The notes below the pieces were generated by a model. The model was not told the DNA's origin, searched no databases, and saw only the letters and a program-made list of their open reading frames with translations. Positions 30,830 to 57,420 of a stretch of 64,000 bases of DNA are shown here, one piece after another; positions within the stretch are counted from its first letter, which is position 1; every line of letters begins with the position of its first letter. The position numbers and the translations under genes are program-made. The stretch is from an uncultured Clostridia bacterium (GTDB lineage: Bacteria; Bacillota; Clostridia; Lachnospirales; Anaerotignaceae), in assembly GCA_944383885.1 (NCBI GenBank), contig CALWRF010000040.1, forward strand, positions 186,001-250,000. The letters are read 5' to 3'.

Positions 30830-30858
30830 AAAAAAAGGACACCGGCAGAATGTCCTTT
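30830..30858 (-). terminator. Expression-platform terminator of the TPP riboswitch
   Basis: Stem AAAGGACA/TGTCCTTT (30858-30851 with 30841-30834), 9-base loop, then T7 on the minus strand, between aptamer and the first gene. With TPP bound it should form and stop transcription. Confidence 0.85.
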
Positions 30859-30867
30859 CACTTTTTA

Positions 30868-30951
30868 CGCGCTCCCTACGGCGGAATTACCCGCATCAGG
30901 TTCAATGGGACTCTCTCAGCGCCGAGTTTAAAACCGGCACACCCCTGCCTG
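30868..30951 (-). promoter_or_regulatory. TPP riboswitch (THI element)
   Basis: On the minus strand the conserved parts appear in order: CAGGGGTG, GCTGAGAGAG, CCCATTGAACCTGATGCGGG, TAATTCCGCCGTAGGGA. These match the TPP aptamer. Together with the terminator just downstream it should repress the transporter genes when TPP is plentiful. Confidence 0.95.
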
Positions 30952-30957
30952 TATTTG

Positions 30958-38928: not shown

Positions 38929-39188
38929 AAAAAAGCCTTCAATCCCTGCTTTTAGGGACGAAGGCTCGCGGTACCACCCTATTTACACTAAAAAATCAGT
39001 GTCACTTTATACCCTGTAACGAAGGGCTTACGTCCGGAGATACTTTTTGTTCCCTCCGGCGGCTCAAAGACTGCTTCAGTTAAAAAACACACATAACGCG
39101 CCTTACAGCCCGGATAAATCCGTGGGCGTTTCTCTGGAAGGTATTTTAAAACCTACTTATTCTTTTCCCTGCCTTTTACAGCTTAACG
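38929..39188 (-). promoter_or_regulatory. T-box riboswitch of alaS
   Basis: Leader of about 260 bases. The T-box AGGGTGGTACCGCG is at 38980-38967. The terminator stem GCCTTCGTCCCT with its partner AGGGATTGAAGGC (38965-38935) ends in T6. The stem I distal features CCAGAGA and GGCTGTAAGG lie near 39135-39095. Uncharged tRNA(Ala) should stabilise the antiterminator and switch alaS on. The alanine specifier codon is probably in the GGCGCG region, not proven. Confidence 0.93.
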
Positions 39189-53531: not shown

Positions 53532-54437
53532 GTGGAACTTAAACATCTGGAATTTTTTATAGCCTGCGCCGAAGCCAAAAGCCTCAGCAAAGCGTCGGAC
53601 AGGCTGTATACATCTCAGCCTAATGTAAGCAAGGTAATAAGACAGCTGGAAGACGAGCTTGGCGCTGAGCTTTTTGAGCGCACAAGCAAAGGGCTGCGCC
53701 TTACGTCGTTTGGAAAATCTATATACGAATACGCTTTAAACACAGTTAAAAACGCAGAAATAATATACAACATGAGCAAAAACGAAAAACGCGCCGCGTT
53801 CTATATTTCAACTTATCAAAGCAATGTTTTTTCCAAACTTATTGTAAGGCTTTACAAAAACAACCCCGATATAATAATTGAGCACCGTCAGGGAACAGTT
53901 GAGGAAATAATAAACCATGTGGAAAAAGGCATATCCGAAATAGGTTTTTTATACGTTTCTCAAAAACATATAACTGCTTTTTTAAATGTTATTAAACGCA
54001 AAAAACTCGTTTTCACGCCTATGGGCAAATTTAAGGCGTGCCTTTTTGCCGGACCTGAAAATCCGCTTTATAAAATGGACACCGTATCAATAGATGAACT
54101 GGTTAATCTTAAATTTGTACGTAATTTAAGCGATTTCTTTTCTGTAGACGACGGGCTTGAGAAAGTAAGCCTTGGATTTGTAAACTCCGACAGCCTGCAT
54201 AACTCCGTATACACTAACAGCGAACATTTGTCTACAAATCTTCTTTTGGAAACAGACCTTGCAGATATTGGAATTAATTTCAGGTATCCCGGGAAAAACC
54301 AATACGACATAAAAGAACTTTACATTCAAGACGAAGCCTCTGCCCTTACTTTGGGGTATGTTACAGATGAAGGGCACAATATTTCAAATTATGCCAAACA
54401 ATTAGTCCAATACGCTCAGGAATTAATAAAGCCATAA
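53532..54437 (+). CDS. LysR-family transcriptional regulator (GTG start)
   Basis: Regulator of 301 aa. Helix-turn-helix at about 15-60 (KSLSKASDRLYTSQPNVSKV), effector domain from about 90. Start is GTG 53532 behind AAGGAGG; the nearby ATG at 53530 is in another frame. It lies between nifS (divergent) and the ornithine-cyclodeaminase-family gene (same strand, 299 bases on). The latter is the more likely target because regulator and enzyme-transporter genes face the same way as a catabolic unit (inference). Confidence 0.9.
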   Translation: MELKHLEFFIACAEAKSLSKASDRLYTSQPNVSKVIRQLEDELGAELFERTSKGLRLTSFGKSIYEYALNTVKNAEIIYNMSKNEKRAAFYISTYQSNVFSKLIVRLYKNNPDIIIEHRQGTVEEIINHVEKGISEIGFLYVSQKHITAFLNVIKRKKLVFTPMGKFKACLFAGPENPLYKMDTVSIDELVNLKFVRNLSDFFSVDDGLEKVSLGFVNSDSLHNSVYTNSEHLSTNLLLETDLADIGINFRYPGKNQYDIKELYIQDEASALTLGYVTDEGHNISNYAKQLVQYAQELIKP

Positions 54438-54453
54438 CATAATGTTATGGCTT
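54431..54453 (+). terminator. Hairpin at the end of the LysR gene
   Basis: Perfect palindrome AGCCATAACAT-A-ATGTTATGGCT overlaps the stop codon; the following T run is short, so termination may be partial. Confidence 0.55.
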
Positions 54454-54473
54454 TCTGCGTACATTCCGATAAT

Positions 54474-54502
54474 TGTTACTTTTAAGCAATAAGGATATAA
54501 TG
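54474..54502 (+). promoter_or_regulatory. Promoter of the cyclodeaminase-family gene
   Basis: TTGTTA (54474-54479), 17 bases, TATAAT (54497-54502). Predicted start near 54509 leaves a 228-base leader. Confidence 0.7.
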
Positions 54503-54590
54503 TATTTAAAAACAAAGGCGCATCTTTTTGCTATTATTCAGCAGGGCATTTAATATAGCTAAAATTAATCCATCTCAATCCTCAGCTGCT

Positions 54591-54672
54591 TTTTATGCCG
54601 GATAAAACAACAGATGTTTTGGAATTTTAACATAAACAATCCAAGGTGTTTATTGGCTAATCCGGCATAAAA
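54591..54672 (+). ncRNA. Candidate three-way-junction leader RNA
   Basis: Within the long leader of the cyclodeaminase-family gene. Outer stem of 13 perfect pairs: 54591-54603 with 54660-54672 (core ATGCCGGAT/ATCCGGCAT). Inside are two perfect hairpins: AAAACA-ACAGA-TGTTTT (54604-54620) and ATAAACA-ATCCAAGG-TGTTTAT (54632-54653). A T-rich run follows the outer stem, and a second CCGGC (54683-54687) could compete for its 5' arm. No known riboswitch class recognised; could also be a DNA-level operator. Confidence 0.45.
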
Positions 54673-54736
54673 TAATTTTTCCCCGGCTAATATAACAAAA
54701 AGCAATACTATTTAAAACAGAAGGAGGCAATATTTT

Positions 54737-55729
54737 ATGGAAACTTTACTTTTAAATAAAACCGAAGTTGGAAGCCTTATTGATTTAGACGATGTATATA
54801 AGGCAGTTGAAAACGGTTACCGCTCATTTGCAAAAGGTCATGTAGTACAGCCTGATTTTATGACAATAGTAAAACCGGGTACACATACAGGATTTGACTT
54901 TAAAGGCGGTCTTGATTTAGAGGGCGGATACATAACAATAAAATCTTCTTCCGGCGGGTACCCTGATAATCCAAAATTAGGTCTGCCTACAGGCATAAAC
55001 ACTGTATTTTTATATGAAGCCGACACAAGCGCTTTAAAATGCGTTATGGACGGAACTTGGATAACAGGCTGCCGCACAGCTGCCGCAGGCGCTATTTCAG
55101 TAGAGTATCTCGCAAAAAAAGACGCGCATAAAATTGCGTTAATCGGCGCCGGCAACCAGGCACGCAGGCAGTTAAGGGCCATCTCAAGAGTACGTAAATT
55201 TACCGATGTTTACGTATGGGGCTACAGCGAAGAGGAGATTGAAAACTACATCAGCGATATGTCAAAAGAATTGGACGCGAAATTCCACCCGTGCAAGAGC
55301 GCAGAAGATGCCGTTAGAAACGCCGAAGTTATTGTTACGGCAACAATAGGCCGCAGGGGTCCGGTTGTTAAAAGGCAGTGGCTCAATCCAGGCACCCACA
55401 TTGTCGCAATGGGCGCAGATATGCCGGATAAACAAGAGCTTTTTACAGATATATTTAAAGACGCCAAAGCCGTAACAGATTCAACAGCGCTTTGCGCTAA
55501 AAATGGTGAAACACACCACGCAATTGAGGAAGGCGTTATTACAGCAGACGATATTTATGCCGAAATAGGTCAGATTATACTTGGTGAAAAACCCGGCCGT
55601 GAAAATGATACAGAAATTACCCTTTTTGATACTGTCGGCATGGCTATCCAGGATAATGTAATGGCAGTTTCAATATACAACAACGCCGTTAAAAAAGGAC
55701 TTGGCTCAAAATTCGATTTCTTAAAATAA
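54737..55729 (+). CDS. Ornithine cyclodeaminase / mu-crystallin family protein
   Basis: NAD(P)-dependent enzyme (330 aa) of the family that includes ornithine cyclodeaminase, L-alanine dehydrogenase (archaeal type) and ketimine reductases. Rossmann motif IALIGAGNQARRQLRAI (about 134-150), substrate segment GTWITGCRTAAAGAISVEYL, and GAVGADMPDK-like MGADMPDKQEL. AGAAGGAGG precedes the ATG. Its long structured leader, the LysR upstream and the amino-acid transporter downstream suggest use of an imported amino acid. Exact reaction undetermined. Confidence 0.88.
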   Translation: METLLLNKTEVGSLIDLDDVYKAVENGYRSFAKGHVVQPDFMTIVKPGTHTGFDFKGGLDLEGGYITIKSSSGGYPDNPKLGLPTGINTVFLYEADTSALKCVMDGTWITGCRTAAAGAISVEYLAKKDAHKIALIGAGNQARRQLRAISRVRKFTDVYVWGYSEEEIENYISDMSKELDAKFHPCKSAEDAVRNAEVIVTATIGRRGPVVKRQWLNPGTHIVAMGADMPDKQELFTDIFKDAKAVTDSTALCAKNGETHHAIEEGVITADDIYAEIGQIILGEKPGRENDTEITLFDTVGMAIQDNVMAVSIYNNAVKKGLGSKFDFLK

Positions 55730-56058: not shown

Positions 56059-57420
56059 ATGGAAAGGGAAAAACTCGGTTCAAGGCTTGGGTTCCTGCTT
56101 TTAAGCGCCGGATGCGCCATAGGTATAGGAAATGTATGGCGTTTTCCTTACATTACAGGAGTATACGGCGGAGGCGCGTTTGTTTTGATTTATTTATTCT
56201 TTCTTGTTATTATGGGCATGCCTATAATGACTATGGAATTTGCCGTAGGCCGCGCAAGCCAAAAAAGCATAGCAAAATCTTATGTTGCCCTTGAAAAGCC
56301 GGGGCAGAAATGGCATTACCACAGTATTTTTGCCATAGCAGGAAATTACCTGCTTATGATGTTTTACACAACAGTAACAGGCTGGATGCTGCATTATTTT
56401 TATTTAACGCTGAAAGGCAATTTTACAGGTCAGAGCACGGAACAGGTTTCGTCAGCTTTTTCCACAATGCTTTCGCAGCCCGGCGTTATGGCTTTTTGGA
56501 TGATACTTGTTGTTATAGTAGGCTTTACAATATGCTCTGTCGGGCTTCAAAGCGGAGTTGAGCGCATTACAAAAATAATGATGCTTTCCCTTATTGTTAT
56601 TATGATTATACTTGCGGTACACAGCATAATCATACCGGGAAGCATAGAGGGTCTTAAATTTTACATAATACCGGACTTTAACAGAATGGTTGAGGTTGGT
56701 ATATGGCCAACTATAGTAGCCGCCATGAATCAGTCATTCTTTACATTAAGCCTTGGCATAGGCGCCATGGCTATATTCGGAAGCTATATAGGCAAAGAAC
56801 ATGCGCTTTTAGGCGAGTCACTGAGGATTGGGGTTCTTGACACATTTGTTGCATTTGTTGCCGGTCTTATTATATTCCCGGCTTGCTCAGCTTACGGCAT
56901 AAGTCCTGACCAAGGTCCAAGCCTTATATTTATAACACTGCCTAATGTATTTAACTCAATGGCAGGTGGCAGAATCTGGGGCGCTTTGTTTTTCCTGTTT
57001 ATGGCTTTTGCCGCTTTTTCAACTGTTCTTGCTGTATTCGAGAATATAATATCATTCGGCATAGACCTTTTTGGCTGGAGCCGCAAAAAGACTGCTATTA
57101 TCAATACGGCAGTTGTTATAATATTAAGTCTTCCTTGTGTTTTAGGCTATAACTTATGGTCCTCATTCCAGCCTTTGGGTCCTGGAACTTCCGTGCTTGA
57201 TTTGGAAGACTTTCTTGTAAGCAATATACTTCTGCCTTTAGGCTCGCTTATATACCTTTTATTCTGCGTAAGCCGTTACGGCTGGGGCTGGGATAACTAT
57301 ATTAAGGAAGTTAATACAGGCACAGGCATTAAAGTGCCAAAATGCCTTAGATTTTATTTTACATATATAATTCCTATACTTATACTTGTAGTGTTCCTTC
57401 AGGGAATATTTAAGTTCTGA
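56059..57420 (+). CDS. Neurotransmitter:sodium symporter family amino-acid transporter
   Basis: Na+-coupled carrier (453 aa) with 11-12 predicted helices. The first helix GCAIGIGNVWRFPYITGVYGG carries the unwound NVWRFPY segment that binds Na+ and substrate in LeuT-like proteins. FFTLSLGIGAMAIFGSY is the conserved helix 6 region. AAAGGAGAGG before the ATG. Substrate is probably an amino acid (tryptophan, tyrosine, branched-chain or other). Own terminator downstream. Confidence 0.93.
   Translation: MEREKLGSRLGFLLLSAGCAIGIGNVWRFPYITGVYGGGAFVLIYLFFLVIMGMPIMTMEFAVGRASQKSIAKSYVALEKPGQKWHYHSIFAIAGNYLLMMFYTTVTGWMLHYFYLTLKGNFTGQSTEQVSSAFSTMLSQPGVMAFWMILVVIVGFTICSVGLQSGVERITKIMMLSLIVIMIILAVHSIIIPGSIEGLKFYIIPDFNRMVEVGIWPTIVAAMNQSFFTLSLGIGAMAIFGSYIGKEHALLGESLRIGVLDTFVAFVAGLIIFPACSAYGISPDQGPSLIFITLPNVFNSMAGGRIWGALFFLFMAFAAFSTVLAVFENIISFGIDLFGWSRKKTAIINTAVVIILSLPCVLGYNLWSSFQPLGPGTSVLDLEDFLVSNILLPLGSLIYLLFCVSRYGWGWDNYIKEVNTGTGIKVPKCLRFYFTYIIPILILVVFLQGIFKF

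Follow-up and report, generated by a model that had tools for sequence, protein, structure and literature searches.

Promoters controlled by LysR-type transcriptional regulators (LTTRs) share a recognizable architecture, in which an adjacent regulator gene is combined with a palindromic T-N11-A site near position -65, a second element at about -35, and a fixed spacing to the -10 box. In the usual arrangement, the regulator gene is divergent from its target. Two described RNA motifs also bear on the locus studied here. The msiK motif is a 5' leader of unknown role with a long hairpin, and the ribosome site lies in its basal helix (PMC2864571). The Gd4v motif, a guanidine-IV variant riboswitch candidate, has two hairpins linked through a pseudoknot, one hairpin being a terminator with a U run, and its operons can include genes of the ornithine cyclodeaminase family (PMC9788692).

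We analyzed a window of 64 kb from a Clostridia genome; all coordinates below are positions in this window. Here, a LysR-type transcriptional regulator gene (53532-54437) is followed by a 330-aa gene of the ornithine cyclodeaminase/mu-crystallin family (54737-55729; Pfam PF02423), both open reading frames being located on the plus strand. The regulator was assigned from its Pfam HTH_1 domain (6.9e-21), with a partial LysR_substrate match slightly below the cut-off. A sodium:neurotransmitter symporter family transporter gene (56059-57420, plus strand) lies 3' of the cyclodeaminase-family gene and has its own intergenic region of 329 bases. A preliminary description of this stretch had proposed a structured leader between a promoter and the cyclodeaminase-family gene, and our data support this part of it. 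The likeness of the leader to the msiK motif is one of general form only: in both, a metabolic gene is preceded by a 5' leader whose long hairpin carries an asymmetric bulge. Unlike in msiK, the ribosome binding site (AAGGAGG, 54721-54727, plus strand) is outside the structure, and the distribution of the leader is far narrower. The likeness to Gd4v is limited to the gene family association; no terminator was found in the leader, and a search of Rfam 15 returned no family at the gathering threshold, with hits at E values up to 10 being at chance level. The latter result agrees with the preliminary description, which had recognized no known riboswitch class.

The promoter itself is laid out like an LTTR promoter. 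A promoter scan found TTGTTA-17-TATAAT at 54473-54501, one base off the coordinates given for the same promoter in the preliminary description (54474-54502). The -35 box (TTGTTA) occupies 54473-54478 and the -10 box (TATAAT) 54496-54501; together with the GATAATTG element, which corresponds to the second LTTR element at about -35, the promoter spans 54468-54501 on the plus strand. An inverted-repeat scan also revealed a palindrome, AAAGCCATAACATaATGTTATGGCTTT, at 54428-54454, which overlaps the LysR stop codon. Its core, operator O1 (CATAACATAATGTTATG; CATAAC-N5-GTTATG, 54433-54449), is centered about 67 bases 5' of the probable transcription start. The center of the recognition site of LysR-type regulators is expected at about this distance before the start. 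Thus, orthologous promoters conserve a palindromic T-N11-A site near -65, and a LysR-type HTH gene lies next to the promoter, the difference from the norm being that this gene is co-directional with its putative target.

The exact O1 core occurred in one or two copies per genome in five of the six genomes of the genus, as opposed to none for the reversed control. Ten promoters were compared, and all of them contained a GATAATTG-like element 3' of the operator, with the -10 box located 20 bases further on (19 in one). Both the operator and the promoter spacing were kept across genera. The LysR operator, which the preliminary description had missed, is sufficient ordinary control for the gene, with the adjacent regulator as its putative ligand. 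The palindrome at 54428-54454 also resembles a short hairpin and may double as the end of the LysR transcript and the operator for the gene that follows. Elsewhere in the genome of the window, the LysR palindrome has one more exact copy (locus L113, G000:C26:10987-11003), which marks a possible extra target.

Two features of the locus and its relatives go beyond the LTTR architecture. In some genomes, a second palindrome lies just past the -10 box; in this clade only, the promoter is followed by a long structured leader. Two other genomes of the same genus have this leader (73-75% identical) in the same place, flanked by the LysR and cyclodeaminase genes, and the comparisons below are of three sequences, those of the window species and these two siblings. 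Folding and a match of 191 bits to a covariance model (R2, see below) placed the whole structured region at 54524-54702 on the plus strand. It is built from a closing helix (CUUUUUG-UAU/AUA-CAAAAAG), a helix of 3-5 bp, an asymmetric bubble whose 5' side has about 45 bases, and a long hairpin. The perfect 13-bp outer stem of this hairpin is exactly where it had been reported, its 5' arm TTTTATGCCGGAT (54591-54603) pairing with its 3' arm ATCCGGCATAAAA (54660-54672), both on the plus strand. Of the 31 inverted-repeat pairs detected in the window, the longest, with 38-nt arms that are 71% complementary, contains this stem. A lone copy of ATCCGGCATAAAA, without its partner arm, was found in AT-rich intergenic DNA at locus L015, ~1501-1513 (G000:C38:45326-45338).

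The folding energy of the 96-nt core was -27.7 kcal/mol (z = -4.4), a value that none of 200 shuffled sequences equaled. Across the three species, the folding z-scores were -3.3, -5.4, and -6.0; for the window species, a better fold was obtained with the minus strand (-52.6) than with the plus strand (-41.0). Inside the outer stem, the preliminary description had drawn two small hairpins, at 54604-54609/54615-54620 and 54632-54638/54647-54653, and had read the whole as a three-way junction. Both hairpins exist exactly as given, and drawing the junction is possible, but its energy of -21.8 kcal/mol compares unfavorably with -27.0 kcal/mol for a single long imperfect hairpin (54591-54672). The latter contains an inner helix of 16 pairs (54608-54623 with 54640-54655, plus strand) that had been overlooked, and it is also found within the minimum-energy form of both siblings. 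The first hairpin of the junction is still drawable in the siblings through G-U pairs; the second loses four of its seven pairs in both. The three-way junction was thus rejected on both fold energy and sibling conservation. The switch that had been suggested met a similar end: the GGCTAAT repeat does occur at 54655 and 54685, but both this repeat and the second CCGGC, the two elements proposed to mediate switching, are absent from both siblings.

The long hairpin is better preserved. Eleven consecutive pairs of the outer stem were unchanged in all three species. In the inner helix, 47 of 48 cells (98%) were paired; three pairs displayed two-sided and six displayed one-sided changes that preserve pairing, with a single break. 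Compensatory changes in relatives, on which the preliminary description had staked its structure, are therefore present, although in the long hairpin rather than in the three-way junction. When the fold predicted from the window species only was tested on each sibling, 6 of 56 pairs broke, as opposed to the 12.5 and 13.3 breaks expected if the same substitutions were placed randomly (p = 0.002 and 0.001). The excess of kept pairs was modest (p = 0.0016 to 0.27) when substitutions were confined to paired columns, and, in a shuffle control performed on the hairpin alone, 34 of 500 shuffles did as well. Overall, compensatory changes maintained the helices of the sense strand, as is expected of a cis-acting leader, in a comparison of three sequences only; on these three sequences, the predicted structure is probable.

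We evaluated the distribution of the leader with two covariance models, R1 for the hairpin, which was run on 98 relatives, and R2 for the whole 181-base structure, which was run on 392 genomes of the order and 398 genomes of the phylum. Such a search over genomes had been put forward in the preliminary description as a check on its proposal, and only the three sibling species scored well. The R2 scores were 191-216 bits in these species and about 30 bits for the next matches in other genomes, and no leader was found beyond the three species among the 392 order and 398 phylum genomes. The weak R1 matches elsewhere that were inspected turned out to be terminators, coding sequence, or other unrelated DNA. 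Within the genus, the leader was present in three of the six genomes, with one copy in each. It is probably a lineage-specific mRNA leader and not a new riboswitch.

Gene order points to the probable origin of this arrangement. In other genomes with a close ortholog of the cyclodeaminase gene, the gene is usually found directly behind a threonine/serine-dehydratase-like gene. A LysR gene precedes the dehydratase/cyclodeaminase pair in several such genomes and is likewise located upstream of the dehydratase in genome G014. In the three leader species, the orthologous dehydratase (loci L051, L052, and L053), which is 95-100% identical among them, is located elsewhere. The relocated gene has its own copy of the same LysR operator and promoter, visible in two of the leader species; in the window genome, the start of the gene is cut off by the contig end. 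The dehydratase/cyclodeaminase operon behind a LysR operator is probably ancestral, the dehydratase having left the locus in the leader clade. Since the dehydratase adjoins the cyclodeaminase gene in other species but not in the leader clade, the leader probably occupies its former place. We rejected the idea that the leader is what is left of the lost dehydratase, or of a different gene, as neither DNA nor translated similarity was above chance. Pairs of dehydratase and cyclodeaminase-family enzymes could form a hydroxyamino-acid pathway, with weak BhcB/BhcD-like scores.

The explanation that we favor, tentatively and as one falling somewhat short of probable, is an mRNA that is under LTTR activation and whose double-stranded leader, specific to the lineage, acts in cis on processing or stability. 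According to this model, the adjacent LysR-type regulator would bind the palindrome at 54433-54449 and thereby switch on the cyclodeaminase-family gene. The transcript would start near 54508 and carry a leader of about 229 bases, most of which is predicted to fold into a closed elongated double-stranded structure that ends in the long hairpin at 54591-54672 and leaves the ribosome site outside. In none of the three species was the ribosome site predicted to pair with the structured leader; it paired instead with the following coding sequence or nearby bases, and its pairing with the bubble was dismissed for its negligible probability. Given that there is no terminator and that the ribosome site is unpaired with the leader, three possibilities are left: the leader affects mRNA processing or stability, it shields the ribosome site from sequence further 5', or it has no function. 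The leader may work as a processing or stabilizing element, for example, by serving as a substrate of RNase III or by protecting the 5' end, and would have arrived between the promoter and the gene after the departure of the ancestral dehydratase. A plausible call of a three-way-junction riboswitch would then be replaced by a simpler picture of a cross-genus LysR operator, an operon split, and a young gap-filling leader. If functional, the leader offers an example of a new mRNA leader that arose after the loss of a gene from an operon, and the sister species that lack it allow comparison.

The foremost alternative, which we consider doubtful, is that the leader is the fossil of an inserted palindromic element, MITE-like or terminator-like, which came in as a perfect inverted repeat in the shared ancestor of the three species and is now decaying without function. 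Such an origin fits the nested inverted repeats, their confinement to one clade and one place, and the lack of an ortholog elsewhere in the order. It also fits the identity of the whole leader to its sibling counterparts (73-75%), a level that does not exceed the 77-78% measured for the ordinary intergenic DNA 3' of the gene (four-fold degenerate sites, 60-62%). However, the three genomes contained no second copy, no target-site duplication of the kind expected of a MITE was seen, no plasmid matched, and viral contigs gave just two unrelated pattern matches. The substitutions themselves are also hard to reconcile with a decaying palindrome, given the invariance of the outer 11 pairs. A G-U pair corresponds to a C-A mismatch on the complementary strand, and neutral decay predicts the two in equal numbers. 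The non-Watson-Crick cells of the inner helix comprised 18 G-U and only 1 A-C. Thus, the G-U excess points to selection on the sense-strand RNA and argues against neutral decay.

Control at the DNA level only, with O1, a second operator O2, and a third half site accounting for the conservation and with the RNA structure being incidental, is unlikely. The case for it comes from O2. A palindrome of this type (CATAAC-N5-GTTAT) was found 18-19 bases 3' of the -10 box in 4 of the 10 promoters, matching 11 of 12 bases, with a chance of about 1.5e-4 each. These near-perfect copies belong to both siblings and two other genomes and are at equal distance from the -10 box; the loci with a second LysR-type palindrome are L018, L019, L055, and L057. 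On this reading, the closing helix would arise because its 5' arm is one half of O2 and its 3' arm another CATAAC half site. Because the right half of O2 in the siblings doubles as the 5' arm of the closing helix, DNA binding may be the reason why this helix is conserved. However, O2 is degenerate in the window species (CGCATCTTTTTGCTATT, 54519-54535), where its 7 of 12 consensus bases are at chance level within the window. Furthermore, the long hairpin holds no operator sequence and would be left unexplained. As a downstream operator, the second palindrome 3' of the -10 box may serve in looping or repression.

It is similarly unlikely that the leader is an undescribed genus-restricted regulatory RNA, characterized by the long hairpin and the large asymmetric bubble, which arose when the LysR-controlled operon split and which tunes the stranded enzyme gene relative to the relocated dehydratase. 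We consider it very unlikely that the leader, once cut off, is a stable small RNA with a role elsewhere, or that it includes one. Its compact, closed fold of about 180 bases and its free tail would suit such an RNA, but it has no terminator of its own, no independent copies, and no Rfam match.

Even less likely is a riboswitch that senses a metabolite, either one that the cyclodeaminase-family enzyme uses or makes or one that the transporter carries. A structured leader with an asymmetric bubble does precede a gene of amino acid metabolism, and a sodium symporter family transporter is encoded downstream. However, a conserved riboswitch aptamer is expected ahead of related genes in a broad set of species, whereas this leader was limited to three sibling species and orthologs of the gene had no such leader. 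Neither a terminator nor sequestration of the ribosome site by the leader was found that could serve as an expression platform, the repeats proposed for switching were unconserved, and Rfam gave no match.

Least credible of all is leader-peptide attenuation, in which translation of an 11-codon frame would open the hairpin: the frame (MPDKTTDVLEF, MPDKTAGVLEY, and MPAETAGVLEF in the three species) keeps its ATG and TAA in all three, but it has no ribosome site 5' of the ATG, its changes show no bias toward third codon positions, its lack of indels is uninformative because the whole hairpin is without them, and there is no terminator to attenuate.

Two other RNA elements were identified in the window, both on the minus strand: a T-box leader at 38951-39178 (Rfam RF00230, 104 bits) and a TPP riboswitch at 30856-30956 (Rfam RF00059, 64 bits).
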